Shown: positions 9,229 through 64,000 of the stretch, piece after piece
Layout: each line of letters starts with the position of its first letter
How positions within the stretch are numbered: the stretch's first letter is position 1
Assembly (NCBI GenBank): GCA_964035545.1
Contig: OZ037765.1
Coordinates: forward strand, 34,175,504 to 34,239,503
Direction of reading: 5' to 3'
Length of the DNA: 64,000 nt
Source: Bugula neritina
Lineage: Eukaryota > Bryozoa > Gymnolaemata > Cheilostomatida > Bugulidae
Translations under genes and position numbers: made by a program
Notes under the pieces: generated by a model
The model's database searches: none
What the model was told of the DNA's origin: nothing
What the model saw: only the letters and a program-made list of their open reading frames with translations

Positions 9229-25932
<16,704 letters not shown>

Positions 25933-37300: not shown

Positions 37301-37438
37301 AGCGTCTTTGATATGTTGGATGGAGTGACGGTAGAACCTCGGCGTCCCGGAGTACGACTTCGCGTCATCGTGATCAGCATACTGGATGTCCGAAATAACT
37401 CCAAATCGAAACACACTACTTTCAGTATGAGAGGTCAT
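31358..37438 (-). CDS. ADPRM: Mn-dependent ADP-ribose/CDP-alcohol diphosphatase (ADPRM)
   Basis: Two exons on the minus strand: 37438-36793 and 31653-31358 (TAA), 942 nt, 313 residues. The phase-1 junction is consistent. It is a calcineurin-like metallophosphoesterase with all metal-site blocks visible: GVISDIQYAD, LQLGDFIDG, LGNHDLY, the His of FNHC at the splice junction, and LHGHTHQYS. The N-terminal 'FRFGVISDIQYAD' and C-terminal 'LRGVIETPPGEKAW' blocks are typical of ADPRM. Family members hydrolyse ADP-ribose, CDP-choline and related compounds in immune and other cells. Human ADPRM has 342 residues, so this one is slightly short at the C-terminus. The single 5.1-kb intron contains a complete nested gene on the opposite strand (33372-36382). 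Confidence 0.92.
31660..31930. repeat. AT-rich 'taatataatg' repeat in ADPRM intron
   Basis: Irregular runs of 'taatataatataatgtaata' begin just upstream (in gene sense) of the ADPRM exon 2 acceptor. Confidence 0.8.
32359..32441 (+). promoter_or_regulatory. TATA box and 5' UTR exon of the knottin gene
   Basis: 'ctataaatgg' at 32359-32368 is a good TATA box. About 30 bp on lies the likely start site, and a short non-coding exon ends at 32441 before donor GTGAGT. The first intron (32442 to about 33360) is mostly a minisatellite, and the next exon holds the ATG at 33372. The start site is inferred. Confidence 0.5.
32525..33055. repeat. GC-richer minisatellite in knottin-gene intron 1
   Basis: About 32 copies of a 15-16-bp unit 'ggtgtaccctcctaga' with 'ggggata' and 'attcttct' variants arranged in a higher-order pattern. 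Confidence 0.92.
33372..36382 (+). CDS. Secreted double inhibitor-cystine-knot (knottin) protein
   Basis: Three coding exons, all phase 0: 33372-33473, 34747-34872 and 36320-36382 (TAG), 96 residues. The first exon encodes a clear signal peptide: a short basic start, a hydrophobic core (LIVLAVIMAVLA) and small residues before the cut. The mature part has two successive cysteine frameworks, C-x6-C-x5-CC-x3-C-x12-C and C-x6-C-x5-CC-x3-C-x6-C, each the knottin pattern (cysteines 1-4, 2-5, 3-6 paired in known members). Exon borders fall between cysteine 1 and 2 of each knot. Knottins include protease inhibitors, channel-blocking peptides and antimicrobials, and sponges make knottins such as asteropsins. 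The target here is unknown. The gene is nested in the ADPRM intron in the opposite orientation. A poly(A) signal AATAAA lies at 36774-36779. Confidence 0.85.
33465..33752. repeat. Donor-bearing minisatellite in knottin-gene intron 2
   Basis: About 12 copies of a 23-bp unit that reproduces the exon end and donor, TACACTCCT|GTAAGTATATC. The last nine exon bases and the splice donor are both repeated, most units keeping GTAAGT. Confidence 0.93.
35478..36285. repeat. Minisatellite in knottin-gene intron 3
   Basis: Several tens of copies of 'tagtatacacatgtagtata' and length variants end about 35 bp before the last exon. Confidence 0.92.
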
Positions 37439-38748
37439 TGCAAGCAGGGAATGTCTGCAATATCACACAGATGTTTACAAAATATAAGTGAGCAAAGTGC
37501 TAAATTTTGTTAGACATTTGTTCTAAAAACTGATTTTCAATAAAGTAATCAAATAAATAAAACATCGAATTAAGTTTTACTGAACTATATGATGCATAGA
37601 ATGATATGCAAAGTATTTGAGAGTTGAATTCCCTTGCTTTTAGAGGAGACTACTCCGAAATTATCAGATAATAGCCATGAAAAATATATACCAGCCTAAA
37701 TATTATACACTATACTATACACTACATATACTATATATTATACTATACACTATATACTATATATACTATATATTATACTCTACACTATATATACTATATA
37801 TTATACTATACACTACATACACTACATATACTATATATTATAATATACACTATATGCTACATATACTATATATTATATTATTCACTAATTCACTGATTAG
37901 GTGTAACCTAAAACTATAAAGTACAAGTTACACTCAAACACACTTTCAAATGGTATAAAATGAAGTATAATTATAACATTAACTGAACGAAAATAACTAT
38001 AAAATTAAATCCGCCACACTATCATTATGACTATTAGTGTTACTAAATGTAAATTATAAGAATAAGTATTTGACTTAGAGCTAGTATAGCTTTATTAAAC
38101 TTATACTAACGTTACAGCTATGACTTATAACTATAACTAATTAAGAGTATCAGTATAACTATTACTATGAGTCTGACAATGAGTATGACTATGAGTATCA
38201 GTATGATCATGTGTCAGTATGACATTCAGACTGAGTATAAGAATAACTATAAGTATAAATACTAGTGTTACTATTAGTATAACTATAAGTATAACTTATG
38301 TTCTTATAACTTACAACTTATAGTTTTAGTTATAAGATAATTAAGTATAGGCCTACTGTAGAAATCTAACTCTTACACTTGGAGTTATTGTTAATCGTAC
38401 AGTTACTGTTAGTGTTACACTTACAGTTACTGTTTTAATCTATCTCTAAAAATAACTACAAGTAAAAGCTAGTATAACTATTAGTATTACTTTAACTATA
38501 GTCTTAGCCTATAACTAAAAGTAATACTTATACTATAACTATAAAACAAAGAATAAGAGTCAATAATATTAATTGTAAACTCGAGTTTAAAGTATTACTA
38601 TTAGTATTACTATTAGTACTAGTAGTACAGTAGTAGTAGTACTATTAGTACTAATAGTGATACACTTACAGTTACAGTAAATGTAATACTAAGTCTAATA
38701 CTAATAGTAATAGTAATAGTAATACTGATAGTACTACTAGTAGTATAT
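37439..38748. other. AT-rich intergenic region upstream of ADPRM
   Basis: Contains the ADPRM promoter and a 'ctatatattatac' minisatellite (37690-37880). The rest is low-complexity 'agtataactat' sequence. No gene seen. Confidence 0.6.
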
Positions 38749-40443: not shown

Positions 40444-43263
40444 CTACTGCTTAGAAACACGTCTACTCTTGACTGCATCAGCGTATGAAAAGATCGAGCA
40501 ACGTGGTTGGGGTGCGTGATTAAGACTTTGTGCACCCGGCGGATGGATTTTGTTTCTACTTCCGCCGATACAAAAGTTGATATTTCTGTGGTGTTGACAA
40601 CTCCCACATTTGCTCGATTCTTTTCTCGTACGGTTTTCCCCTAGACTTTCATGTGTGCCGCTTTTAACGCAGTCACATACGAAGTCCTTCAAGTATGCGG
40701 GGGGTTGCCTCGTACGCTGTCCCCTTTCTAGGGGGGGTGACACGCTTGCCGGTTCGTTAGTAGGGGCCTCTAATGGCGTCTCTACTTCACCGTCAGCAGT
40801 CACCTCTTCTTGTTCTCCGGATGGAGCCCCTCCCTCCGTGAGGGTTTGCACTTCCGGAACCGGCTCGGTTTCTGGAAGTGATGGAATTAGACTTGGCGGT
40901 GGCGGACACGCTTCTGTTGGTAGAAGCTGCCGCTCCTCTCTCACCAAGTTTTCTTCCCGCGGTATGACCACTTCGTATTCAGGTCCATGCCGCCGTCGCC
41001 CGCGCGTTGTTGTCTGCCTTCTGGGCTCTAACAACGGGGGGGCTTCTCCCACTCCGCCGGGGCTAGCCCAATATGGTTTCAAGCGAGACTCATTCTGGAT
41101 AGATACCTGTCCTGAGCGCTCGATCTTGTACGTATGATTGGGCATAGCCTCGACGACCACGTAGGGGCCTACGAACTTAGGCTTCAGCTTATCAGCCTGT
41201 CCGCGGCGCCTACGGTAATTGACCATCCACACCTTATCTCCTCTTTGATAGAGGGGTGGTTCATCGGAATCTTCGTGCCGCACCTTCCACTGCTGTTGAC
41301 GCAGTATCTCGTGTGCGGCCTTCATCCGTTCCACTAGTTCACTGGCATACTCATGGACTGAGTTATCCTGCTCTGGAACGTGATATGTGAGATGGTCAGG
41401 GACACGAGTCTCTCTCCCGAGCATCAAGAGGTTTGGGGTCTCACCAGTACTGGTGTGTGGGGTGCTACGGTATGCACGCATGACTTGCGGCAACACCGTA
41501 TCCCATTCCTCTTGACCTCGTCCAAGGAGGAGACTCCGGAGCGCATCACCTAGCATCCGGTTGTTGCGCTCCACCACCCCGTTACCTTGAGGGTGGTAGG
41601 GGGTGGTCCTGCTCTGATTTACTCCCCAGAGGTGGCAAAGGTCGCTCATCAGTTGAGACTGGAATTGAGCGCCTTGATCAGAGTGTATCTGTTCGGGAAG
41701 CCCAAAATAACAGAATACATGTTGGTCTAGTGCCCTGGCCACTGTTGGAGCTGATGTATCTGGGATAGCCAGAGCATCCGCCCACCTAGTAAAGTGGTCG
41801 GTTAGTACTAGGATCCAATTATTGCCTCTGGGGGTCAGGGGCATGGGTCCGACTAGGTCTACAGCGACTACTTGCCAGGGCCTACCAGCATATAGCCTCC
41901 GCCGTCCTGCTTCACCAGGGGGGCGGCTATGCTTACTGGCCTGGCAGATCTCACACTGTTTGACTCTGAGCCGGACATCACGCTCCATCTGCGGCCAATA
42001 CCACCGGAGTCGTAGTTTGGATATCACTCGCTTGACCCCTGCGTGGGCCTGCTTGTGAGTATCCCAAATCAACTCACGGCGGATGGCTGTGGGGCAGACT
42101 ACCCTCTTCCTTTCCGGGTGTCTGCCGCTGGCAGCTAGAGAGATGGTTAGCAACCCATCCTGCCCGATCCGCAGCGAGTCCCAACGCTGACAGTATAGCC
42201 GGAACTCGGCGCATCCCTGTCGTATGCGTTCCTCACTGGGTCGTCGCCCTTCCCTTTTGGCCCGGTAGATGTCTGCCACGACTCCAGGCAGCTCTTCTTG
42301 GAGCTTCTTCAGCTCTCGAACATTACCGGCCAGTACAGGGTTGGCGCGGAGGTTTTGTACATCCTCCGGGGACTCATCAACCCTTTGCCTGAGTTGACCT
42401 TGATCCCAGTCAAACGGCGCTCCGTGATGAGCCAGCGTCTCCAACTCACATCGTGGGGGACCTCCATCCCTCCTCTCGATGTTGAGACACTGTTTGCAAC
42501 CTCCGTCAGGTCGGCGACTCAACCCATCCGCATTGCTGTGTCTCTTGCCCGGCCGGTGTTCGATCCGGTACGAGAATTCAGCTAGGATTTCGAGCCACCG
42601 GGCGACCTGACTAGAGGGCTCTGCTCTCCTGCACAACCAGATCAGCGAGGCATGATCCGTACGCAGCCGGAACTTCCTGCCATACAGGTATGGTCTGAAG
42701 TGCTTCACTGACTTGATTACTGCCAGCAGTTCCTTGCGGGTAGTGCAGTAATTTCGTTCAGCGGGAGAGAGAGACTTGCTGTAGTAGGCTACTACTACTT
42801 CTCGGCCTTCCTGCACTTGTGACAGCACAGCGCCAACATTCTGGTCACTGGCGTCCGTGTCTAGGATGTACTCCAGAGTGGGGTCTGGGTAGGCCAAGAT
42901 GGGCGCCGTTAGGAGGCAGCCCTTGAGGCGGTCGAACGCTTCTTGTTCGACTGGGGTCCACTGCCACGTCACTCCCTTTGCGGTAAGCCGGTTTAAAGGC
43001 TGGGCTATGCCCGCAAAGTCTGGTATGTATTGTCTGTAATACCCTACCAGCCCCAAGAAAGCCCGGAGTCCGGTCAAGTCTTGGGGGGTGACCCAGTCTT
43101 CTACTGCCCGTACCTTTTCGGGATCCGTTGCCACGCCGTTCCGACCGACAACGTGCCCCAGGTACTTACTTGACCTCCGGCTGCAACAGAGCGCACTTGG
43201 AAGGCTTGAGCTTAAGACCGGCACCTCGGAGTCTCTCGAAAACCTCCTGCAGACGACTGACAT
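40444..43263 (-). CDS. pol: Retrotransposon Pol, second part (RNase H, integrase)
   Basis: True pol sense resumes at about 43165 (YLGHVVGRNGV); the codons before it, up to 43263, are out of the original frame. Then come RNase H (DTDASDQNVGAVLSQ, RTDHASL), the integrase zinc finger H-x-H-x-C-x2-C (HKQAHAG to CEICQ), the integrase core with D-D-E (VVAVDLVGPM, HSDQGAQF, GVVERNNR), and a GPY/F module (KFVGPYVVVEAM). A proline- and glutamate-rich tail of about 200 residues ends at 40444. Without the frame break this would be one protein with 43166-45076. Confidence 0.92.
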   Translation of the reverse strand: MSVVCRRFSRDSEVPVLSSSLPSALCCSRRSSKYLGHVVGRNGVATDPEKVRAVEDWVTPQDLTGLRAFLGLVGYYRQYIPDFAGIAQPLNRLTAKGVTWQWTPVEQEAFDRLKGCLLTAPILAYPDPTLEYILDTDASDQNVGAVLSQVQEGREVVVAYYSKSLSPAERNYCTTRKELLAVIKSVKHFRPYLYGRKFRLRTDHASLIWLCRRAEPSSQVARWLEILAEFSYRIEHRPGKRHSNADGLSRRPDGGCKQCLNIERRDGGPPRCELETLAHHGAPFDWDQGQLRQRVDESPEDVQNLRANPVLAGNVRELKKLQEELPGVVADIYRAKREGRRPSEERIRQGCAEFRLYCQRWDSLRIGQDGLLTISLAASGRHPERKRVVCPTAIRRELIWDTHKQAHAGVKRVISKLRLRWYWPQMERDVRLRVKQCEICQASKHSRPPGEAGRRRLYAGRPWQVVAVDLVGPMPLTPRGNNWILVLTDHFTRWADALAIPDTSAPTVARALDQHVFCYFGLPEQIHSDQGAQFQSQLMSDLCHLWGVNQSRTTPYHPQGNGVVERNNRMLGDALRSLLLGRGQEEWDTVLPQVMRAYRSTPHTSTGETPNLLMLGRETRVPDHLTYHVPEQDNSVHEYASELVERMKAAHEILRQQQWKVRHEDSDEPPLYQRGDKVWMVNYRRRRGQADKLKPKFVGPYVVVEAMPNHTYKIERSGQVSIQNESRLKPYWASPGGVGEAPPLLEPRRQTTTRGRRRHGPEYEVVIPREENLVREERQLLPTEACPPPPSLIPSLPETEPVPEVQTLTEGGAPSGEQEEVTADGEVETPLEAPTNEPASVSPPLERGQRTRQPPAYLKDFVCDCVKSGTHESLGENRTRKESSKCGSCQHHRNINFCIGGSRNKIHPPGAQSLNHAPQPRCSIFSYADAVKSRRVSKQ

Positions 43264-45076
43264 GTGTCTCGAAGTCTGGAGAGATTACGATGACATCATC
43301 GAGGTAGACCAGCAGTGTCTTCCAATGGAGTCCGCTAAGGACTTGTTCCATCAGCCTCTGGAAGGTGGCTGGGGCGGAGGTTAACCCGAAGGGCAGCACC
43401 TTCCACTTCCACAGACCGTCCCGTGTGATAAACGCCGCTTTCTCTTGGGCGTCGGGACTCAGAGGAACCTGCCAATAGCCGCTTAGCAAGTCTAACGTAC
43501 TGAAGTACTTGCTGCCGGCTAGGGCGTCCAATGACTCGTCAATACGAGGTAGAGGGTAGGCGTCCTGTATGGTTACGCTATTGAGTTTGCGGTAGTCCAC
43601 ACAGAACCGCCAACTGCCGTCTTTCTTCCGGACCAGTACGACTGGCGAGCTCCACGCACTATGGGCGGGCTCTATCAGTCCCCGGTCCAGAAGATCCCGT
43701 ACTTGTCGGCTAACCTCCTTCTCTTTCTCCGGCCCCAGCCTGCGTGTGGGCTGCCGGACAGGGACTGTCCCTGCAGTCAGCGGTATTTCGTGTCTGACAA
43801 TTCCAGTCAGTCCCACGTCATGCTCTCCGCTGCTGAACACATCACCGTAGTCGCGTAGTAACTTAGCCATAGCTTGGCGCTCTCTGTTACTCGCGCAGCC
43901 ACCACTGGCTGTTTCGTATAACTCCCGGAGATGTGTTGGGACTGCCCCTCGTCCCTGAATAGGGTGTCGAGGGAGTGCCTCTGTCGCATCACCCAGCGAC
44001 GGGCCTACGTCTCCCTCTTGAACAGAGTGGAAACGGCCCAGCATCGACCCAGCCGGGAGCTTGATAGGCTCGGTAAAGGGGTTGACGCACTGCACTAAGA
44101 TCTCCCCTTGCTCAGTCAGCTGATTCAGACTGCTGGCAAGTTGGATCTTTTCGTGCGCGCCTTCAACCACCCCGAGTCCAGAGATCCGGCTACTGTTCAC
44201 CCTGCAGTGAATGGTAGCCCGGGAGCGGCCTGGTATGGTACGGTTGCGTACCACTTGCACACCTCCCACTAAAGGGCAGCCGAACTTGTCGACGCAGGCG
44301 AGTTCCCGCCCGGACATCATCATTGCAGATCTGCTAAAATCTATGTGACATCCGTGCCGTTTAAGGAACGGCATCCCGAGGATAGCATCCTCCTTGAGCT
44401 GACTGACGATGAACGTCTCTTGGATCGTTTGATCGCGGACTCGTCCCGTCAGCTCAATTATACCATAGAAGGGAAGGCACGACCCGTCAGCTAGGGTGCC
44501 GTATTCCCCTTCGTATGCTTCCATCTCGCCCCTGACCCTAGCACTGAGGGTGTCGAAGAGTTGGCGGCTTAAGAGGTTTGTGGTACAGCCCGAATCAATG
44601 AGAAAAGTAACAGCTTTGCCTTCCAGTTTACCGGGCAAGAAATAGCTGTTCCCATGGGGCTGCACCTGAACTCTCCCTTCAGGCCTTACTCTCGCAGGGA
44701 GTACCTCCCTCGCTTTGGGTCGCGAAGGAGGTCTCTTGGGGCGGTGATAGGTAGGCCTCGGGGGTGCCGAGGCTGGATTCTCAGCTACCTTTGTGTGCTC
44801 CCATCCAGATTCTTGGACTTGTAGCCCTGTGAATCTGTTGTGAAGGGGCATAGAAAAGGTAGCCGCGGGGCGAAGCCCCTTGCTGGTCCGTCGCGGCTGT
44901 TGCCACTGTTGGTTGCCAGTACGCGGTACCCGTCTGGGTGACCTGCGTTTCTTCTTCCCTAGAGGTTTCGTCGGCCCGCGGAAGGTGGGAACATCTGCGG
45001 GCCGCGGTAGTTTAACCCCTGATTTAGGAAGGGACAATATCGGCGGAAATGTCCTTGATTTCCGCACTCCCAGCAA
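43166..45076 (-). CDS. pol: Retrotransposon Pol, first part (protease, reverse transcriptase), truncated
   Basis: 636 codons from the first ATG. A basic, proline-rich linker is followed by an aspartic protease with FLIDSGCTTNLLS, then reverse transcriptase with YPLPRIDESLD, LLSGYWQVPL, LPFGLTSAPATFQ and the catalytic YLDD box. The frame stops at 43166 in the reverse-transcriptase thumb because of a 4-bp tandem duplication (plus ACTTACTT, 43164-43171). The rest of pol continues in another frame. Confidence 0.93.
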   Translation of the reverse strand: MLGVRKSRTFPPILSLPKSGVKLPRPADVPTFRGPTKPLGKKKRRSPRRVPRTGNQQWQQPRRTSKGLRPAATFSMPLHNRFTGLQVQESGWEHTKVAENPASAPPRPTYHRPKRPPSRPKAREVLPARVRPEGRVQVQPHGNSYFLPGKLEGKAVTFLIDSGCTTNLLSRQLFDTLSARVRGEMEAYEGEYGTLADGSCLPFYGIIELTGRVRDQTIQETFIVSQLKEDAILGMPFLKRHGCHIDFSRSAMMMSGRELACVDKFGCPLVGGVQVVRNRTIPGRSRATIHCRVNSSRISGLGVVEGAHEKIQLASSLNQLTEQGEILVQCVNPFTEPIKLPAGSMLGRFHSVQEGDVGPSLGDATEALPRHPIQGRGAVPTHLRELYETASGGCASNRERQAMAKLLRDYGDVFSSGEHDVGLTGIVRHEIPLTAGTVPVRQPTRRLGPEKEKEVSRQVRDLLDRGLIEPAHSAWSSPVVLVRKKDGSWRFCVDYRKLNSVTIQDAYPLPRIDESLDALAGSKYFSTLDLLSGYWQVPLSPDAQEKAAFITRDGLWKWKVLPFGLTSAPATFQRLMEQVLSGLHWKTLLVYLDDVIVISPDFETHVSRLQEVFERLRGAGLKLKPSKCALLQPEVK

Positions 45077-45918
45077 AAACTGACTGTTTCTCCCTGTGGC
45101 GGCGCCGATGGCCGCATGGGCTCAGGGGCGGTACTCACTGGGTTTTGTGGTGTCAGTGTTGCTATCAGGTTGGCTAGCATGTCCGTCAGTTGAGTGACTT
45201 TTGATGCCGTCGCCAACTGGGACACGGCAGCCGCGGCGGGGGTTTCCTCCCCTTGTCCCGCGGCCGTGTCTGCGCGGTCTATCTCCACTTGGCGGGAGCT
45301 TCCGCGACTTTTATGCATTTGGTTAGCTAGGAGGTAAGCTTCCCCCTCAGTCAGAGCATCTTCAACGGTGGTGACTCCCCTAGCTAGAAACTGGTGGTGG
45401 AGACCCAGATCGTCGACAGATGCTATGAAAGCGTCGAGGGTGTACCTCTCGCGGTTGACTGGGGGCAAGTCGCTGTACGCGATCTGTGCCAGCTTCATGA
45501 CCGCGGCGGCATGCTCCCGCAGCGGGGTGCGGGGATCACGCCGCAACCTCTGTAATCGGGCCCTGGCATCTGTAGCCGAGAGGCCAAAGCGGGCCCGCAG
45601 AGAAGCAAAGATATTATCAATGTCTACGCCCAGCCCATAGGGCTTTGCTTTGTCCATCAATGCCATTCTAAGCTTCAGCAGGGCCACCCTAGGGGGCCAC
45701 TGAGCGACGTCCATTACGTCGCTAAACTCTTGAATAAATTGTTCCACCTCCTCTTCACCCGTGAAGGTGGGCGCCTTTAACCTGTAGCGGTCTTCAGCTA
45801 GTTCTCGCGGAACCCTTCGCTCTTCTACTACATGGTTAACAGGCATTGTCTCTACAGCATTGTCTCTACGCTCACCTTCGATTGCCGGTGGTTGAGTTTC
45901 AGCATTTTCAGTCTCCAT
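44959..45918 (-). CDS. gag: Retrotransposon Gag
   Basis: 319 codons. The N-terminal and middle parts have the helical, charged capsid-like region of Gypsy Gag (for example FTGEEEVEQFIQEFSDVM). Near the C-terminus is one CCHC zinc knuckle (CWECGNQGHFRRYC), which binds RNA. The 3' end overlaps the pol ORF by 118 nt, with pol in the -1 frame, implying programmed -1 frameshifting. Intact as read. Confidence 0.93.
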   Translation of the reverse strand: METENAETQPPAIEGERRDNAVETMPVNHVVEERRVPRELAEDRYRLKAPTFTGEEEVEQFIQEFSDVMDVAQWPPRVALLKLRMALMDKAKPYGLGVDIDNIFASLRARFGLSATDARARLQRLRRDPRTPLREHAAAVMKLAQIAYSDLPPVNRERYTLDAFIASVDDLGLHHQFLARGVTTVEDALTEGEAYLLANQMHKSRGSSRQVEIDRADTAAGQGEETPAAAAVSQLATASKVTQLTDMLANLIATLTPQNPVSTAPEPMRPSAPPQGETVSFCWECGNQGHFRRYCPFLNQGLNYRGPQMFPPSAGRRNL

Positions 45919-45930
45919 CTTGGATGCACT

Positions 45931-45948
45931 ATCCCACCGCTGCCACCA
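45931..45948 (-). promoter_or_regulatory. Primer-binding site, tRNA-Leu
   Basis: The plus strand reads ATCCCACCGCTGCCACCA, which is the 3' end of animal tRNA-Leu (AAG type) plus CCA. The minus strand is therefore complementary to that tRNA over 18 nt, one base inside the 5' LTR. Confidence 0.85.
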
Positions 45949-45949
45949 C

Positions 45950-46256
45950 TGTTATGTTTTTCAGATTTAGGGTTGATATGCTATCCAGAGAGTCTATTTA
46001 TCTAGTATAGAACTGCACCAGGCTAAGTCGAGTGAACGAGTATATTTTATACACAACTATACATTATAAAAACACGATACATTATTTCCAAACAAGTTAC
46101 ACATCTAATCTATCTCACACTCTAGCTTCGACTGCGTTAGCAGCGGGAAACTACAATTGCTGCTAACTATCAACTACGCTAATTGGCTATCCATTGTTCC
46201 GGGTCAATTACGCGACCCTACATGTTGTGCTGCTGGTAGTTCCACGAACCACCACA
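45950..46256 (-). repeat. 5' LTR (element sense)
   Basis: 307 bp, matching 38749-39055 throughout. It carries the element promoter. Confidence 0.95.
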
Positions 46257-51309: not shown

Positions 51310-52660
51310 ACTGCAAGTTTTCCTGTTGGCTGGCTGCCAAAAGTCTTCTATAAACTAGAACTGATACCAAAGAGTATACATAACTTGAGTGGGTATCATT
51401 ATTATAAATGTGTCTAAAGCCAATACCAAAGAGCATACATTTCAACAACCTATCACGTGATCATATAAACACTATTACTTGCAGTGCAGCACTAACTAGC
51501 ACACACTAAGAGGGAAGTCACTTATCCCTTCCTAGTCAGAATAAGAAGATAATCAAGTTAGTTTATGGAAGATATTATGTAACATGTGCAGATGGTGAAG
51601 AGTATCTCAACTCACCTGCTGACTTCATTTTAATTCACTGTAAGAATAATTTATTTATTATAAAAAATGTAAGTGACTGAAAGGTTAATTTACTTTAGTA
51701 CCTGTAATGGGAGAAATTACGTTGACAATGGTGACCTCTTACAGAGTTGATTAACCTTAAAATGAAGAGAATTTAACATTTATTTGGTGTTATAAAATCT
51801 CTCAGTACATAATCTTACAGGTGTTACTTGATTTTACATCCTTTCTAGAGTATATTATATGATATAACTATAAGGCTGGTACATGGTATCAGTAGAGATA
51901 TGTTACAGAAATGTCAAAAGCTAGCTTTAGTTTCTAGTATTCTACCATGTATATAGTTGTTACAGATGAGAATGGAGACTATTGAATACAACTAGAGCTG
52001 TAACCAGTGACTACAGAATGGGTCAAAGTGAATCTGTTCCTAAAGACGAATCAAGTTAGTAAATTATATAGATATAAATACTACCAGTTATAGCTGCAGA
52101 ATTTTTACATTATACGCTTTTATGAGTTACATGACATTCAGTTGCAGCACTAGAGAAATTGAGGTAGCCTAAGTTCTTTAATTCTCTTAAAAAGATTTGC
52201 ATTGGGGCGTGGTTAAAAATCTCACGAGAACATAACTCCATTTGTTACATTTCTGATGAATAAATACAAGCTTTTTTCAACTTTGTATTATATACTTTGC
52301 ACCTAACTTTGTGTTGACCACAACTGGGTGCATTATTGTATAATGTTATATACTGACTTATATTATATACTATAACTATTATACTGAAGCTTATATTATA
52401 ATACATCAAAGTATAATATATTGTTATACTGACATATATATTATATTATATCACAAATAAAGTGTTATTATTATTTTATATTATATTGTAGCTATTATAC
52501 TAACCTACATCATGTTACGTTACAATAATTGTAGTAACCTTAGTTAACTATTATAACATGCACATTTTACTGACCTATATTGCATTATATTACATTATAT
52601 TACACTAGAATACTATAACACATTATACTGTACAGAAGTATAAACAACATGGCTACCCTT
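51310..52660 (+). repeat. Segmental duplication copy B (promoter and first-exon region)
   Basis: The partner of 48870-50760, immediately upstream of the ROCO-caspase gene body. It contains the first coding exon used in the gene model (51966-52054). Confidence 0.88.
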
Positions 52661-55600
52661 TACCTGTCATCTGCTATAGTTGATGTCTGCGTCAGTTACA
52701 GGGATGAGTCATACTCTTATAGGTATAAACTGACAAAGTGGGCACAACTTGAATATACATTCAGATTTTATCACAGGATTTCAATTTAATTATCTGTAAT
52801 TTTAAGTAGTTAAAATGTAAAATGTTTATTGTGTAACTATTGCCAGTTATGGTTCTATGCATTGATGGTGTTTACAAACATTCTATTATTATAAACTTTT
52901 ATTTATAAAGTAGTGAATATCTTGTAGGGAAGTACAGTGTGTGGTTCAACACATCCAGTATAGATGGAGCTGATGATGAGTGGATGGAGAATGATATCAC
53001 ATCCTACACTATAGAAGAGATCAATGATATAAGTAGACATCATACAGTTATAACTCATGTTATACTGAAGCATGACATTCTTCCAAATATCAACAAACTG
53101 TTTCCCCATCTCACACATCTGAAGGTATCTGGAGTAGAGAGTGATGCTAACTGGACCAGGTATTATTTTATTATAATATGAAACTATATTAATAAGTGAG
53201 ATATTATCTTGTAGTAGAATGTGGAGTAATCTCCCTTCACAATAACACTAGCTTTAGTAACAATTTTTGTATTATTTACCTTATTTATTGTATTTCTATT
53301 TATGCTTCAATTTAAAGTGAGTTGGTGTCATTCAAACATAGTCTAAACATATAATAGTATAATAGTATGTGATAATTATGTAGAATTAAATATACTGTTA
53401 CACCTGTATATAATTATTATGTTACAGCATATCTTCACTGAAGAATCTTGAGGTATTGAATATGTCATTCAGTGACTTATCTAAAGGTCTACCAAACAAT
53501 ATATGCAGATCCTTACCATCATTGAGAGAATTGTACATGGAGGTCTGTCAACTTCCAACTCTACCAAACAGGTGTGTATTATATTATACATTATGAATTT
53601 ATCTGCACTATCTTTGTTGACTCAACTAGATTCTGTGTATATTATACGTCACAAGTCAATTATTGCATTCTATTCTATTAGATATGTACTCAGATAGAAA
53701 TGGTATGACAAATTCTCACTTATTACTCTAATAAATGTGGACAAGTAAATTATTTTGCAGTATAACTATATAACTATGTTGCATTAAATAGGTTATATTG
53801 AGAACAGGTGATAATACAGACCCTTTTCCAATGCCCCCCCCCCCCCCCCCCCCGGTACTCAATTTCAAGTTAGGAGTTGAGTCCTCTTCAACAGGGATTG
53901 AGTTAAACCATGTTTTAGAGAGAAAACTAATTACAACTTTAAAGTTTGACTGTTATTTAAAATCTCAACTATGCTATGGAATTGTTCTTACAGGAGATAG
54001 ATATTCTGGTATAGCACACATATTAGCAGTTCAAGAAATATTTTACAAACATTTCTTCATAATAAGTTTTGAAAAAAAGTAAATTTGAAAGCCTTTTCGT
54101 GATTTTGGTTATTGAGCAATGCTGAAGAGCAGTTGAGGTATGAATTCCTTTATTTATTTGTTGTGCTGGCTGTCACCACTTTGTTTAGATCTGTTAACCT
54201 TTCAATTCCTTGGAAAAGGGTCTACTGATATAAAATAAGCTATACTACTATTACATTGTTGAGTGAAATGTAGAGTGCTAATGATAATACCCAGGAGTTC
54301 AATAGACTTTGATGATTTTCTATACCCGTGTGTTATATGTTACAGCATATCTTCACTGAAGAATCTTGAGGTATTGGATATATCACATAACTACCTATTT
54401 GAAGCTCTACCTGACAATACATTCACATCCTTACTGTCACTGAGAAAGTTGTACATGATGGACTGTAACCTGCCAACTCTACCAAACAGGTGTGTATTGT
54501 TTAATTGTACATATATAATAATATAGAGTAGGAGAAACTCTACTAACTATACAATATTAATTCATGACTTGGCTGTTAAAATATTATTACTGGAGTGGTT
54601 TGTGCAGTACATGTGTACTTGATATTCAGGTAGATGACAACTCTCAATACTCTGTTAGTAAAAGTATATTTGATGTCATGTTTTTATGGGTTACATGCTG
54701 TGGTTATATTCTTACTAAAATATTATACAACATTTCATACCTGTATGTTATGTTACAGCATATCTTCACTGAAGAATCTTGAGGTATTAAATATATCATA
54801 TAATAACCTATCTGAAGGTTTACCTGACAATGTATTCACATCCTTACTATCATTGAGAGAGTTGAACATGGTGAGGTGTGAACTGCCAACTCTACCAAAC
54901 AGGTGTGTATTATATTAGCCAATCCAAAGATCAGCACCATGAAAGTCAGTCATATGTTGCTGCCTTTTTCTATCAAAACTAAATGCATAAACATTTTACT
55001 CACTAACATAGAGCCAAATTTTAACTGTATGTTTTTTGACATAATACACCCCAATATAGGGGGCAGGTTGAACTGCCCTGTGGGAAAGTTGAATCAGTGC
55101 GTTTATCCTATAATATAATTTGTTTTATCTATTTTGTAAGTTAAAAAATGACTTATTAAAAAGTAACAATAATAATCATTAAAAGAAATTAGAACAAATA
55201 ACAGAATTTCTGAATGTGATCTGTCATTGTAACCATTCAACATCTCAAAGTAGATACTTTAAAACCCAAGCAGCAGCAGCAGCAAGCTGGCAGGAAGCTC
55301 TTTTTGCAATTCATCCTTGAACAATGTATGCAGATATGAGATGGGGTCCTCTCATATGACATCAGAAAATACACAGTAGCATGGTTGAGCCTAACCAACG
55401 TCTTTCGTTGGCTGTTTGAAGGCTCTCAACTTGATGAATTACACTATCCTGCCTTGCTTTACCGTTATAGGTCATTGTCCAGCTTTGAAACTATGTTGAA
55501 AATATATTCTTGAACTTGACTGGTCTATTAAAACTTGAGAAGCTATGCAAGTTTTTATGAAAATGGCAAATTTTTAATTTGATCATTTTTATGCAAACAG

Positions 55601-58600
55601 TGTGAAAAAATCCTCTCTCACCTGAAAACTTCATTTCATACATTTCCATATGTTTGATAATGTTGTGAATTTATGCCGTTAAATCTCAATGTGTTATTGA
55701 GATTAGAGCATAAGCTGGTATATTGCGAGTGTAATATTCTATTTATCTGAAGCAAGATTTCATACCTGTATTTAATATGTTACAGCATATCTTCACTGAA
55801 GAATCTTGAGGTATTGAATATATTAGATAACTACCTATCTGAAGGTCTGCCTGACAATATATTCACATCCTTACTGTCATTGAGAATGTTGAGCATGGAG
55901 AACTGTACACTACCAACTCTACCAAACAGGTGTGTATTATATCATACATTATGAAGTTATCTGCACTATCTTTATTGAGTCAACTAGACTCTGTGTATAT
56001 TATACGTCACAAGTCAATTATTGTATTCTATTCTATTAGATATGTACTCAGATAGAAATGGTATGACAACTTCTCACTTATTACTCTAATAAATGTGGAC
56101 AACTCAATAGATCCCTTTCAGAGGTTCTCAAGATCTCCCTTACATTTAAGAGTTGTGTCCTCCCAAAAAGAAAATAGATTGAACAAAATAATCTTGAATT
56201 CCTTTTTGTGACTTTGGTTGCTGAGCAATGCTGAAGTGCCACTTCAGCATTGCTCAGTAATGAAAATCACAAAAAGGAATTCAAGTTTATTTTTTTCAAA
56301 ATTCTCTTGAAGAAATATCTTCAAAAAAAAATTTTCAACTGCTAATATGTGTGCATATACCAAAATATCCATCTCCTAAAAAAACAATTCTATAACATAA
56401 TTATAATTTTAAGTAGCAGCCAAATGTTAAATTTTGAATGAGTTTGCTCTTTATACAAAGGTTCAACCTACTGACTTTGGGAGGACACAACTCTTAAGTG
56501 TAAAAGAGATATCCGGGCACCTGAAAAGGGTCTATTATTTCAAATGAAATAAGTTATATTAAATTGAGTTACAAATATGTTACAATATTATGCAATGCTC
56601 ATATTGTTGAGCATAGAATGTACAGTAATATTAATAATAAATAGTATAGTTAAATTAACTTTGATTATTTTCTACCTGTATATTTTTATGTTACAGCATA
56701 TCTTCACTGAAGAATCTTGAGGTATTGAATATATCAGGTAATAACCTATCTGAAGGTCTACCTGACAATATATTCACATCCTTACTATCATTGAGAAAGT
56801 TGGGCATAAATAGTTGTAAACTGTCAACTCTACCAAACAGGTGTGTATCATTTAATTACATATATAATAATATAGAGTAGGAGAGACTCTACTAACCATA
56901 CAATATTTATTCATGACTTGGCTGTTAAAATATTATTATTGAAATGGTTTGTGCAGTACATGTGTACTTGATATTCAGGTAGAAGACAACTCTCAATACT
57001 CTGTTAGTAAAAGTAGATTTGATGTCATGTTTTTATGAGTTACATGCTGTGGTTATATTCTTACTGAAATATTGTACAACATTTCATACCTGTATGTTAT
57101 GTTACAGCATATCTCCACTGAAGAATCTTGAGGTATTGTATATGTCAGAGAATAACCTATCTGAAGGTCTACCTGACAATATACTCACATCCTTACTATC
57201 ATTGAGAGAGTTGAACATGAGGAACTGTAAACTGTCAACTCTACCAAACAGGTGTGTATTATATTACATTATGAAGTTATCTGCACTATCTACATCAGGC
57301 GCACTAAACGCTGTGTGTACGAGATTTCTTAAGGCAATTACTATATTGTATCAGATGTACACATATAGAAATGGTATGACAATTTCTCATTCATTACTCT
57401 GCTATATGTTGACAACTAAATTATTCCGCAGTGAAATATGTTATATTGAGACTAGGTATGAATATGTTGCAATGTAAAACTATACTAGAACATAAATGAG
57501 CTATTGAGTAAAATGTGGAGTATTAATACGTATTATAGCTAAATTGACTTTGATGATTTTCTACCTGTATTTTATAGCAGCATATCTTCACTGGAGAATC
57601 TTGAGGTATTGGATATATCAGATAATAACCTATCTGAAGGTCTACCTGACAATATATTCACATCCTTACTATCATTGAGAGAGTTGAACATGAAGAACTG
57701 TGAACTGTCAACTCTACCAAACAGGTGTGTATTATATTACATTATGAAGTTATCTGCACTATCTACATCAGGCGCACCAAACGCTGTGTGTACGAGATTT
57801 CTTAAGACAATTACTATATTGTATCAGATGTACACATATAGAAATGGTATGACAATTTCTCATTCATTACTCTGCTATATGTTGACAGCTAAATTATTCT
57901 GCAGTGAAATATGTTATATTGAGACTAGGTATGAATATGTTGCAATGTAAAACTATACTAGAACATAGATGAGCTATTGAGTAAAATGTGGAGTATTAAT
58001 ACGTATTATAGCTAAATTGACTTTGATGATTTTCTACCTGTATATATGTTATGTTACAGCATATCTTCACTGAAGAATCTTGAGGTATTGGATATATCAG
58101 AGAATAAGCTATGTGAAGGTCTACCTGACAATATATTCACATCCTTACTATCATTGAGAGAGTTGAAAATGGGTAGCTGTAAACTGTCAACTCTACCAAA
58201 CAGGTGTGTATTACATAATAGTGTAGAAAGATAATTATTGTAATAAATATAAATTATAAATATATTTTTACATGTGTTCATAAAACTCTAACAGATTTGC
58301 TACACTGAGATATATTATAATATTATACTGAGATACATTATAATGTTATACTGAGATATATTATAATACTATATATACTGAGATCTATTATCATGCTATA
58401 CTGAAATATATTATAATATTATACTGAGATATATTGTAATATTATAGGGGTAACAGGGGCACAACGGTCATAGGGGTAGAAAAAGCCGGCGTAAATTTTT
58501 TAGGATGTCGTTGAAGCCTTATAAATTTTTACACTCAAAGGCAAGAAGCCTAAATTTTACTAATATTGTTGCCATTGCTTGTCTCTACAATGCTTAACTA

Positions 58601-61600
58601 GTATAACAGCAAACACTGAAATAAATTTTCCTTGAGGCACATTTATTTTCAATTTGGCCACATGGGGCACAATGGGCCACCTGATTATTGCACCCTGATC
58701 ACTGTTATTAGTTTGTTTGCCCAAAAAGTTGGTTGAACTGTTACTAAAATCTATAAATATAGCCATTTCTGACCTTTTTGTAAAATATCAAAGACATCAT
58801 GGTAAGACTACAAACCTACAAGTTGAAGCTCCCCTAATACATACATCTGGTGAGGTTGAAGCTTTGCCATTTTATACATAATACAAAACACTCTGCTGTT
58901 GCTACTTGCTACTAGTAGATAGTCATGATAATCATTATATATTACACCATTGAGGGAATATACATGCATTTGACTGAAATAAATTGTGATTTGCTCATTC
59001 GCTCTCCCCTTTCCGTTCCGTACTCCAGTCACAAACCTCAGCCATGCATGCACCTTAGCTACAGTTCATTGAAAAAAGTTCACTCAGAATTTTTGTAGTA
59101 CATTTTAGTAAAGTTTCTTTTTAATAAACGTTGCTCTGAAGTGAAAATAACAAAACATTTTTAGTTCGAAACAGTAATGATAATGGCACTGCAGAATTGA
59201 GTGACGTGCGTTTGATTTTGCCTTCCTCTGCTATCCGTAGTGGCACAAACCGTACAGCTAAAACATGAATTTTGCTGTAGATCTGAAAGAGTATCTTTAT
59301 TTATTTGTATTATTAAATAAATAAAGATCAGATACAACAAAATACGCAAAACTTCAATATATTTGTTGTGTCCCACCCAGTGGCCCATTGTACCCCGGTA
59401 CCGGGGCACAATGAGCCAATTTTTTCAACATGAAAATTTCATTATTCTGAAAGTTGTGAAAGAGATAGAAACAAGAAACTGGTACCTGTAATAGATAACA
59501 GATGTAGCATTAAGACTAGAGATTATTGAACTAGTAACTTGAAAAACAGACCAATGAGAGCAACAAATGCAAAATTCGGCCGGTTGTGCCCCCCCCCTTT
59601 ACCCCTACTGAGATATAGTATAATGTTATACTGAGGTATATTATAACGTTATACTGAGATATAATATAATATTATACTGAGATATAATATAATGTTATAC
59701 TGAGATATATTATAATGTTATACTGAGATATATTATAATATTATACTGAGGTATATTATAATGTTATATACTGAGATATATTATAATGTTATATACTGAG
59801 ATATATTATAATGTTATACTGAGATATATTATAATGTTATACTGAGATATATTATAATAGTATACTGAGATATAATATAATGTTATACTGAGATATAATA
59901 TAATGTTATACTGAGATATAATATAATATTATACTGAGATATATTATAATAGTATAGTGAGATATATTGTAATGTTATACTGAGATATAATATAATATTA
60001 TACTGCGATATATTGTAATAGTATAGTGAGATATATTACAATGTTATACTGAGATATAATATAATATTATACTGAGATATAATATAATGTTATACTGAGA
60101 TATATTATAATGTTATACTGAGATATAATATAATGTTATACTGAGATATATTATAATATTATACTGAGATATAATATAATATTATACTGAGATGTATTGT
60201 AATAGTATAGTGAGACATATTATAAGGGTAATCAATAAACAGTTACTGTGTGATGCATTGTATAATTAACCTGCCTTATTCCATCAAATACCAGGGAGTG
60301 TAACTCCAAGCATCTATGAAATATAATTACTAAACAATAGAAATTGCAGAGAATCTTATATATTTACTACAGTGGTATTATATTACAAAGTATATTATGG
60401 AATTTTATTATTTATATGTTTATACAAAAGCCTTTTCAAAACAACAATTGTATTTTTGTCTGCGTACAGATTCTACAGAAGTTAGAGGAACTGGACATAT
60501 CGTCAAGTAACTTCACCAATTTACCATCTCCTGTGTACACACTGAGTAGTCTGCAAGAACTGAATATATCTTCCAATTACTCTTTGACATCCTTAGATTC
60601 TGAGATATTACAGCTAACTCAACTTCGTACACTGTATGTTAGAAATTGTGATGCTCTCACCTCTCCTCCACTGGAAGTATGTCAGAGAGGAGTAGATGCT
60701 GTGAAACAATACTACACAGACTTGGCTAAAGGAGTTGGTAGAAGTCTGCCATTTGCTACTATAGCTGTGCTGGGTAATACGATGGCTGGGAAGACCAGTC
60801 TAATCAGAACATTACAGAATGCTGACAGAAAGAGAGTTCTGACCGACAGAGGACCAGATGCTGTGAGAGATGAGGCAACAAAGGTGTTTAATGTTGAAGA
60901 GGTGGAGGTGGATAGTACAGTACTCCGTCTCATTGATATGGGAGGCCAGGAAGTCTATCATATCACTTATCAACTAACACTGAGACAAAATTGCATTCCA
61001 GTCATAGTAGTCAACATGGAACAGTACGAAGAGGTTTCAAATGAATCAACACACAGAGAAGCTGTTAAAAGATTAGCCTTTAATTACATGTCTCACCTCT
61101 ACCTGGCTAACCCAACCCTGGGTGCTCCAAAACTTATCTTCACACATAAAGATAAGTTTCAAAATGTGGAATTCCAAGAGCTTCGAACGAACTTTCTAGA
61201 CACTTCCAATCAGCTGTGTGAGGAGATGATTAAAGAAGAGAAAGCATTGGGTGGAGAATTTGCTCAAATCAAACATTTTAGTGAATCAACTAAAGGAGTC
61301 TTTCTTGGTGAAGACATTTATGAGGTGGGGAAAGATGATAAGTATGAAGTGTTTGACCTGATCAGGGAGTCTTTTCTTCAAAGCAGTCACCATTTTGTGA
61401 AACCATTACCTTTGGTCTGGGAGGAAGTAAATGAAAAAGTGCTGTCTATTCCCTCTGTGTACAGCACCTTTGATGAGATACTGAAATACGTGCAAACCGA
61501 ACTTCAACAAATCGAATCGAGTCAGCTGGACATAATCCTCACATACATGCATGACTGCGGCAAAGTCTTGTGGTATAAAGATATCAGCTCTCTCCGGCCA

Positions 61601-64000
61601 TACATATTCCACAAGATTTCACAAGTCACCAAACTTCTCTGCGTCTTGTATCATCATGATCCTGACATTTGGCAGAGTAGAGTTGACAAGTTCCAGCCAT
61701 ATTTTTCAGAGGATGGGATGCTTGTTGAAAAAGAAGACTTTGAAAGATTTGTTAATCATTTCACTAAGACGGGTTTAATGATGCAATGCCTTCTCACTCA
61801 TCTGGTTAAACAAGAAACACCATTTACTGGTCTGGAAGATGTAAAAGTTGCTGTTTGCTTGCTCCTCACATTCCGTTTGTTATATGGTCCTTTACCTGCT
61901 GATTTCAAAGAGCCCTGTTTTATTGTTCCTCAGTTTGCTAATGACCTCTTTGATACCTCTTACTCTTCGCCAAAGAATATGCTTCTTCGAGTTGAAACCC
62001 AATTCAAGGGCTTAGCGCTACCACAATATGTCTACCAGCAGATGAATGTTGGTTTGCTAGAGTTGTTTTCCGATGAATTTGCTGTGATTAAAGTGAAGAA
62101 AAATGGCGCCAATGTCTATCAAGATGGAATCTACACACAGCTGGTACACGACTACAAATCTAGAAAAGTGTCACTCCACGTGTCATCTAATGCTGCCAAC
62201 ATCAGCAGAATGTGGGAGAGACTCATCACCACCAACAACAACATCCTTAGACATGTTCTAGAAACTTGGAAAGCGAGTAGACCAGTCACTACATGCTACT
62301 GTGCTCACTGTCTTCTGCTAGGACTTCCTTGTCCTAATAAAGTGCTGAATCCTCTGTGGTGCAGTCTTCGCTCCTTGAAACATTCCACACCAACAAGTCC
62401 CAGACTGTGCAGCGGATCTTCAACAACCCTGTGTGGTGATGAGGAGATACCCAGTGCTCTTCTGTATCCATGTACGTGTAATTTTATTTCAAAAAATAGT
62501 TGATTTCTCTGTGGTTTATTTATCAACTTCTATTATTGGAATAATTTTTGTGGTAACTGACAGTTTTTCATTCTCCAGGCAGTCCTCTTTCTCCAGAAGA
62601 AGCTGATAACATAAAAAAATGTGTCAACAAACTGAGATCTGCAAGAGAAGAAACTGCTTCAACTGTCCCTGGTAGGATCAGTTGTCTATCATAAACTGTT
62701 ACTGTTAGAAGTAACATCCTTTGCCTGAGCTCAGTCATATGTAAACAGCAAAGGACAAAAACTCATGACCCTCAGTTATATAGGCTCTCTGCAAAAGCTC
62801 ACACACCTTCAATTGTTTTAATTTATTTGTATATTTATTGACTGAAAAACACTCAAGTACTGATTCGATTCATTGTTTATAGTCCTTTTGATACTTAGTA
62901 TCTGTTACTTAGCACTGAATATATCTCTTTTTCGTTTTATTTTAGAGATGGGTAGAGAAAAGAATTGGTTAACTCAAACTACCTCAGTCCTTGTTGAAAA
63001 CGACAACATCAGTGAATGCTCTGATGTTGAAGAGGAAGGATATGCTGACTTCACTAAAGATGACCTTGAACCTTTCATATCTCTAGTTGAGGGTATGCAG
63101 CTGAAACCTACCAACAATGAACCAGTGAAACAGCTGTTTGACAACGACCGACAGGTAAAACAAGTTTTTTGATTTCTTATTAGATCATTGATTAATATTT
63201 TTTTGATATTATGGCTCTTCATCTAATTTCTATTACATTTCATACTTGATTTGATTAATCCATTTTCTGTTGTCTACTTTTAGTAATATAAAATTGATTG
63301 GTTTGCAGGTTTATGCGATGAGTGACCCTGTTAGAGGTCGTGTCATGATCATAAACAATGAGAGATTCTTTAGAGATGATGGCAGTGAACTGACTGAGGC
63401 AACCCGAGATGGTTCATACATCGACTATGTTAACATCAAAACTCTGTTGAAAGACATGGGATTTGTTGTAGCCAATGAAGATGATCCTCTGTTTGACCTG
63501 AGTAAACAGGTTACTGTATCAATTTCTTATCTTTTCCTGTAGTTTATTCTCCCCAGGCTGTAGCTAGCTGTGATATAGCCTATAGCAAGTATTTTTACTG
63601 CAGAACCGAGGCATTGTATTCCAACAAATCTACAATAATATATTGTTAAATTGTATTCAAATTATTAGTTTTTCTCAGTTCTGAGTTTTAGTTTAGAAAC
63701 AGCAGCACTACTTAATAGTTCATCTTTGTTATAAATGTTTTAGTGTAACTTTGAAGCAGCTTTTGCTCGTGCGTAGAAACATTTACTTATCCAAACTTGA
63801 TTTTACACACCATTATATACTTTTATTTTGCCAGGAGATATTATCAGAAGTGAGGAAGGAGACCACCGACAAAGACCACAAAGATCTTGGCATGTTCATT
63901 CTAGTCATCATGTCACACGGAACTTCTGGAAACATCTTCTATGACAAATACTGTAAACCTGTCAACTTGTCAGAAGTCAAAGATTTACTCTCAGCTAGTA
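52018..64000 (+). CDS. LRR-ROC-COR-caspase fusion protein, 3' incomplete
   Basis: Exons: 52018-52054 (MGQSESVPKDES), 52928-53159, eight 144-nt LRR exons (53428-53571, 54346-54489, 54759-54902, 55786-55929, 56697-56840, 57108-57251, 57581-57724, 58060-58203), 60470-62471, 62579-62671, 62946-63154, 63309-63509 and 63835->64000. The N-terminus fits the MG-x3-S myristoylation pattern. About 16 LRRs come first. The large exon adds more LRRs, a ROC GTPase (P-loop GNTMAGKTS 60773-60799, DMGGQE 60935-60952, THKD 61142-61153) and a COR-like region, then a Cys pair (CAHCLLLGLPC). The final exons open a caspase domain: RGRVMIINNERFF, RDGSYIDYVNIKTLL, and the catalytic-His motif MSHG (His 63916-63918). 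The active-site Cys lies beyond the window. All phases agree except 58203 to 60470 (see findings). The ROC-LRR part resembles MFHAS1-type ROCO proteins. Confidence 0.82.
53818..54223. mobile_element. Small TIR element (MITE-like) in LRR intron
   Basis: The ends AGACCCTTTTCCAA and TTGGAAAAGGGTCT are inverted copies. TA flanks are compatible with a TA duplication. The interior includes a C19 run (53835-53853) and 'gtgattttggttattgagca', shared with the element at 56106-56536. Confidence 0.6.
56106..56536. mobile_element. Foldback MITE in LRR intron
   Basis: The arms 'aagagttgtgtcctccc' (left) and 'gggaggacacaactctt' (right) belong to terminal inverted repeats of about 57 bp ending in GATCCCTTTCAG / CTGAAAAGGGTC, flanked by TA. 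Inside, a second inverted repeat (cttgaattcctttttgtga / tcacaaaaaggaattcaag) would form a long hairpin. It is related to 53818-54223. Confidence 0.75.
58285..60235. repeat. 'tactgagatatattataatgt' minisatellite, split by a transposon
   Basis: A roughly 23-bp AT-rich unit containing TATACTGAGATATATTATAA occupies 58285-58446 and 59606-60235. The two parts were one array before insertion of the 1.16-kb element between them. Confidence 0.9.
58447..59605. mobile_element. 1.16-kb nonautonomous TIR transposon
   Basis: The ends GGGGTAACAGGGGCACAACGG and CCGGTTGTGCCCCCCCC...TTTACCCC are inverted copies with a TA on each side, restoring the surrounding minisatellite when removed. Sub-terminal 'ggggcacaatgggcc' motifs recur inside (about 58665 and 59385-59415). 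No transposase ORF is recognisable. Confidence 0.82.

Follow-up and report, generated by a model that had tools for sequence, protein, structure and literature searches.

A large bryozoan family of predicted LRR-ROC-COR proteins fused to a caspase domain in Bugula neritina

The end of a 64,000-nucleotide stretch of the Bugula neritina genome (contig OZ037765.1, C1:34175504-34239503; hereafter 'the window') carries a predicted gene in which leucine-rich repeats (LRRs), a ROC GTPase domain, a COR domain and a caspase domain follow one another in a single chain of exons. Our main finding is that this gene is one of a large bryozoan family: comparison of the sequences supports about 95 copies in the genome, and the same fused LRR-ROC-COR-caspase architecture in two genera, Bugula and Watersipora. 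We consider it rather probable that the intact members are single proteins that detect a non-self or damage ligand and activate the caspase they carry.

The gene model runs from window position 52018 to 65043, its last ~1 kb lying past the window end, and comprises 18 exons: one with a Met-Gly start, an LRR cap, eight LRR cassettes of 144 bp, one ROC-COR exon, two linker exons, two p20 exons and three p10 exons. The stretch marked in the original prediction, a note made from the letters of the window, begins at 52018, where an ATG opens a plausible first exon. That prediction had also placed ROC-COR and caspase motifs in one exon chain; all of these motifs were found, and the downstream junctions are phase-consistent. 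Indeed, all seven introns from 62471 on begin with GT and end with AG (four inside the window, three just beyond), and the linker and caspase exons follow the ROC-COR exon in phase. Among the junctions predicted between 60470 and 64000, those of the linker and caspase introns therefore stand, whereas the ROC exon starts at 60463; a start at 60470 does not fit, because the 'cag' before it gives phase 0 while the cap and all cassettes end in phase 2. The features of the model are as follows.

52018..52054, + strand: predicted first coding exon, 37 bases, MGQSESVPKDES(R), Met-Gly start, ends in phase 1
52928..53159, + strand: LRR N-terminal cap exon, ends in phase 2; by eye like the N-terminal region of Watersipora protein P0019
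53428..53571, + strand: LRR cassette exon 1, 144 bp, phase 2/2, two LRRs
54346..54489, + strand: LRR cassette exon 2, 144 bp, phase 2/2, two LRRs
54759..54902, + strand: LRR cassette exon 3, 144 bp, phase 2/2, two LRRs
55786..55929, + strand: LRR cassette exon 4, 144 bp, phase 2/2, two LRRs
56697..56840, + strand: LRR cassette exon 5, 144 bp, phase 2/2, two LRRs
57108..57251, + strand: LRR cassette exon 6, 144 bp, phase 2/2, two LRRs
57581..57724, + strand: LRR cassette exon 7, 144 bp, phase 2/2, two LRRs
58060..58203, + strand: LRR cassette exon 8, 144 bp, phase 2/2, two LRRs
60461..60462, + strand: acceptor dinucleotide of the ROC-COR exon, TG in the window copy and AG in a 99% identical paralog (lesion 1)
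60463..62471, + strand: last LRRs, ROC GTPase and COR in a single exon, open frame
62579..62671, + strand: linker exon 1, kept in loci L012, L015 and L018
62946..63154, + strand: linker exon 2, acidic stretch SECSDVEEEGYAD; Watersipora counterpart, for example, SDLSDVEEEGYCD
63309..63509, + strand: caspase p20 exon a, with RGRVMIINN and RDGSYIDY
63835..64000, continuing to 64057 past the window, + strand: caspase p20 exon b, with MSHG, and KPKLIIFHACSG past the window
64326-64526, 64688-64797 and 64885-65043, past the window, + strand: p10 exons, with an in-frame TGA at 64756-64758

The ROC-COR region is a single open exon with the P-loop GNTMAGKTS, DMGGQE and THKD, and it scores 32.3 bits with the Pfam Roc model, above the cut-off of 27. 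Pfam scans of this exon matched Roc and found no NACHT or NB-ARC domain. An NCBIfam scan gave LRR effector families far under their cut-offs and a weak small-GTPase match. The predicted fold of the ROC-COR exon matches LRR-Roc-COR over residues 1-667, at full length against CtRoco and LRRK2 and through COR, with 12-17% identity to solved ROCO structures. ROC-COR was likewise placed by predicted fold in the Watersipora protein P0044; confidence in the full Watersipora model was moderate (predicted local distance difference test, pLDDT, 74.4), and in a structural search with it the matches were filled by the LRR part, residues 1-253. By architecture and predicted fold, the window protein is a ROCO protein. 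A likeness to NLR logic had been suggested; with no NACHT or NB-ARC domain the protein is not an NLR, although it may, judging by its architecture, resemble one in its working.

As for the caspase, the two p20 exons of the window, scanned singly, narrowly miss the Pfam cut-off (19.5 and 20.4 bits vs 21.4). The nearest intact relative is a near-identical (99%) paralog, L012/L013, which lies 68 kb downstream on C1 and has the same 18 exons. Every intron of L012 is GT-AG, and its exons form one uninterrupted reading frame of 1,541 codons, stop codon counted, or 1,589 with a ninth cassette that is absent from the 18-exon model (its exon ends in AAG, not CAG). The joined caspase domain of L012 scores 99.1 bits in Pfam (E 4.2e-28) and matches caspase-3 and CED-3 in the PDB. 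Catalytic His and Cys are retained in 20 of the 21 loci that were read, the window included (His was checked by script throughout, Cys by script for 6 loci and by eye for 14). The original prediction had called for an active-site Cys in the extended protein; it is present just past the window end, in KPKLIIFHACSG (L009), and the wider QACxG context varies among copies (HACSG, VVACRS, LEVCSG). The p10 exon b is present in 20 of the 21 loci, and the 21st has one just outside the stretch read. Judged by sequence, the intact members are caspases. Between COR and caspase, linker exon 2 of the window carries the acidic stretch SECSDVEEEGYAD, which resembles Watersipora SDLSDVEEEGYCD; an acidic linker of this kind (SD-x-SD...GYCD-like) occurs in 10 of 15 Watersipora models.

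The linkage of the two halves is a property of the whole genome. The ROC-COR exon has at least 75 genome matches, a lower bound as 75 of 112 candidates were scored, and 70 of the 75 have no internal stop. Of 95 ROC/COR exons, 92 (72/75 ROC and 20/20 further COR) are followed by a p20 exon on their own strand at a distance of at most 8 kb; the 95 comprise all 75 ROC matches and 20 of 23 COR hits, two short frames and one duplicate of the ROC list having been left out. By comparison, one p20 exon was found upstream and none on the opposite strand, and the random expectation is ~0.0025 per exon; the three ROC exons lacking a p20 within 8 kb have one at 10.6-15.4 kb. Of the LRR cassettes, 142 of 150 scored (from 801 candidates) are exactly 144 bp long, and at least 122 of the 150 have one of 31 ROC exons no more than 20 kb to their 3' side, a lower bound in that the first 31 of the 75 ROC exons were used. 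Among 41 family members (set A2), Pfam Roc was matched at E <= 0.01 in 39 and COR-A in 30; a NACHT match (E 0.0041) occurred in one. Around one ROC exon, a 2,363-residue open frame looked at first like an exon with LRR and ROC together, but it was a run of N and was dropped.

The p20 exon itself has 133 genome matches. For 41 of these there is no listed ROC exon within 8 kb, the partners of the three distant ROC exons included, and p20 clusters without a listed ROC-COR neighbor (C9 9.32-9.41 Mb, C2 30.51-30.55 Mb) point to a wider caspase expansion. A diverged member on C6 (L024, 15221449-15231448), in which His and Cys are lost (SQG), is a possible pseudo-caspase.

Three protein searches yielded 15 relatives in the bryozoan Watersipora subatra, whose Ensembl annotation rests mainly on transcript alignment according to a genome-wide statement in the passages available of PMC12902671. 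Nine of the 15 have a precomputed Pfam Peptidase_C14 domain, and eight of these also have LRRs. Two proteins, P0019 and P0031, span 99% of the query from ROC to the end at 36% and 31% identity, and P0021 spans 86% at 35%; when rescanned, all three were far above the Pfam caspase cut-off. Among the matches listed (41, 39 and 120 of 341), PF00656 was precomputed in 3, 7 and 3, in Watersipora every time; no further named organism had both domains and none was named Bugula, in searches that need shared 5-residue words and scored ~8,000 candidates each, which does not imply absence from other phyla. Metagenome proteins, with identities of up to 89%, match the ROC-COR exon only. The comparison with sponges and cnidarians that had been proposed was misplaced, the animal being a bryozoan.

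Patterns of substitution differ along the protein. The ratio of nonsynonymous to synonymous substitution rates (dN/dS) is 0.23-0.35 in ROC-COR (six pairs), which looks like constraint, and 0.10, 0.47 and 0.59 in the caspase (three pairs, few changes). The exposed positions of the LRRs are hypervariable: at ten exposed-strand positions, chosen after some cassettes were already in view, nonsynonymous (pN) and synonymous (pS) differences are 0.354 and 0.116, vs 0.050 and 0.074 at the other positions. The exposed positions have a mean entropy of 1.77 bits vs 0.28 for the rest, which none of 20,000 random position sets reached; these values come from 22 cassettes of three loci (a fourth, L017, gave none), several of which are near-identical between the window and L012 and hence non-independent.

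The caspase and ROC-COR parts have different histories, judging by identity patterns and by synonymous divergence. Among 27 loci with a ROC-COR at least 77% identical to that of the window and a linked p20, the p20 is at least 80% identical in 12 and less than 60% in 15, and the ROC identities of the two groups overlap (81-100 vs 77-90); one locus has a ROC only 71% identical to the window's, yet a p20 92% identical. This comparison covers 48 of 75 rows, including all 28 at 77% or more, and part of the p20 list. Moreover, L012 and L015 differ by a dS of 0.22 in ROC-COR and of 0.035 in the caspase. We read this as exchange or conversion between copies.

On this basis, the following scheme can be proposed for the intact members. 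The Met-Gly starts of the window copy, of L012 (MGQRKS...) and of 3 of the 15 Watersipora proteins (MGAKSSK, MGCSLSR, MGNGQSR) fit the N-myristoylation sequence pattern as applied to such starts, which suggests a membrane tether, the modification being predicted; 11 of the 15 Watersipora N-termini are not Met-Gly, and one is Met-Gly outside the pattern. The lipid-tethered N-terminus would thus hold the protein at the membrane, and the LRR arc, with cassettes for varying ligands, would bind the ligand. CtRoco undergoes a nucleotide-dependent dimer change through its ROC-COR, and GTP/GDP cycling may similarly alter the dimer state here, as in CtRoco and LRRK2. Attached caspase domains would then be brought together, activated by proximity and autoprocessed, the acidic linker being a candidate site of self-cleavage or docking, and the active caspases would trigger cell death or inflammation. 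New specificities and outputs would come from tandem duplication, from 144-bp cassettes being gained or lost, and from caspase parts being exchanged between copies. We infer GTP binding, dimerization, cleavage after Asp and a ligand-induced oligomer from the architecture, just as 'sensor', 'switch' and 'protease' are terms inferred from domains and selection patterns.

Several points weigh against intact members acting as single receptor-proteases. Splicing of the window gene model is predicted from sequence. COR-A in the window copy (16.4 bits vs a cut-off of 35.3) and Roc in P0019, P0021 and P0031 (20.4-26.2 bits vs 27) are below Pfam cut-offs, so that the ROC-COR assignment there rests on predicted folds. 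Two of the three caspase dN/dS values are as high as 0.47-0.59, one of the 21 loci (L024) is without catalytic residues, and the window copy is probably impaired rather than a working receptor-protease. Finally, six of the 15 Watersipora models (P0043, P0046, P0049, P0050, P0051 and P0082) have no Pfam caspase, and given these, split genes or isoforms are possible.

The window copy has two lesions: TG stands at the ROC exon acceptor where the near-identical paralog has AG at the equivalent base, and the p10 exon, past the window, contains the in-frame TGA. Among 93 matches to p10 exon b genome-wide, the window copy is the only one with a stop; a complete p10 is thus missing from it, while p10 is stop-free in L012, L015 and L018. 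With a 99% paralog that is intact, we lean towards regarding the copy in the window as a pseudogene in decay, or as a decoy lacking caspase output, within a family that functions elsewhere. Against this, the ROC-COR and p20 frames of the window are open, dN/dS between window and L012 is 0.23 in ROC-COR and 0.10 in the caspase (four changes), and the lesions were judged from one assembly, in which a fixed lesion and a single allele look alike. The sensor-switch-protease in one chain that the original prediction had proposed here fares well as an architecture, in the family and in two genera, and less well for this particular copy.

Could the receptor and the caspase be two neighboring genes that tandem duplications carry along together? 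The open frame of the ROC exon continues beyond its donor up to a stop at 62503, and the six Watersipora models without a Pfam caspase could be taken in the same sense. We nevertheless regard two genes as very improbable: phases agree at every linker junction in the window and in L012, the linker exons are conserved in near paralogs, LRRs and caspase occur together in 8 of the 15 Watersipora models (precomputed Pfam), and the linkage in 92 of 95 loci extends to ROC exons that are just 38-50% identical to the window's. A caspase part acting mainly as a scaffold or regulator, as the loss of catalytic residues in L024 and the departure from QACxG around the Cys would allow, is only slightly less improbable, given that 20 of 21 loci retain both His and Cys and that 8 of the 15 Watersipora models have QACSG. 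It is also conceivable, if unlikely, that the family serves programmed tissue turnover, such as polypide regression or larval metamorphosis, instead of recognition of non-self. Bryozoans regularly resorb their polypides, and caspases are tied to metamorphosis in other invertebrates according to two papers (PMC10967218, PMC7617490). The ~95 copies, the cassette number that differs between near-identical copies and the replacement-rich exposed LRR positions rather point to varying targets being recognized. More tentatively, these proteins may form a cell-death immune receptor class that bryozoans evolved themselves, a membrane-tethered ROCO sensor, GTP switch and caspase in about a hundred germline copies that exchange cassettes and caspases, as the main repertoire for pathogen or allo-recognition in place of multi-protein inflammasomes.

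Elsewhere in the window, retrotransposon frames (aspartyl protease, reverse transcriptase, RNase H and integrase, by Pfam) occupy 40447-45121 on the - strand, and the frame adjoining them (44962-45951) had no Pfam match. A SNRNP200 (Brr2) helicase exon (Pfam SNRNP200_wHTH) lies at 16541-16978 on the + strand and a metallophosphoesterase exon (PF00149) at 36716-37462 on the - strand, while long open frames at 17.9-18.9, 21.3-22.4 and 23.6-24.5 kb are largely short tandem repeats. In the genome at large, C6:11174072-11175412 is a nuclear COX1 copy (433.3 bits vs 435.4 for the gene on C295); the C295 COX1 is sensible, by eye, under the invertebrate mitochondrial code, table 5 (AGA = Ser, ATA = Met), and further COX1 genes on C17, C196 and C65 may stem from other organisms in the sample.

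How does the family compare with known systems? In the apoptosome, the PIDDosome and the NLR inflammasome, a switch oligomerizes and activates CARD or DED initiator caspases by proximity, and proximity activation through an oligomerizing sensor or switch is common to these and to the scheme proposed here. To our knowledge, animal caspase initiation needs a multi-protein platform joined by CARD, DED or NACHT domains. Such platforms bring several proteins together through adaptor domains, whereas the bryozoan family would use one predicted chain, with ROC-COR replacing NACHT/NB-ARC. Caspase prodomains are covered in PMC10967218.

Known LRR-ROC-COR ROCO proteins (CtRoco, LRRK1/2, MFHAS1) have a kinase output or none, unlike the caspase of the bryozoan family with its ~95 copies; MFHAS1 is likened to the family only through NCBI protein names. 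A peptidase output of another kind is IPR009003, which we take to be a trypsin-like family. It is C-terminal in three ROCO proteins of Stramenopiles, Alveolata and Rhizaria (SAR), according to passages of PMC11378527. The same passages describe brown-algal LRR-ROCO candidate immune receptors that, like the bryozoan family, are expanded, have in-phase phase-2 LRR cassettes and are under diversifying selection; their LRR exons are 72 bp long, against 144 bp (2 x 72) in bryozoans, and the word caspase is absent from the text (PMC11378527). Trichoplax ROCO proteins also form an expanded animal set tied to cell death, but in the parts available of PMC4104024 they have CARD or death domains, which would recruit partners, and no caspase domain was found. 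The original prediction knew of no described LRR-ROC-COR-caspase class, and none came to light: the best-ranked matches in the open-licence PMC literature (titles, abstract starts and passages) contain no description of a ROCO-caspase fusion, and no paper on bryozoan immune receptors was found there by title.

If the proposed reading is true, a single chain that combines recognition, a GTPase switch and a protease would be simpler than a multi-protein platform, and an expanded animal ROCO family would have a function outside LRRK2 biology, in parallel to the LRR-ROCO receptors of brown algae with their shuffled exons. As the window copy warns, individual loci of such a family can be broken; the family as a whole would provide bryozoans with a candidate recognition repertoire.

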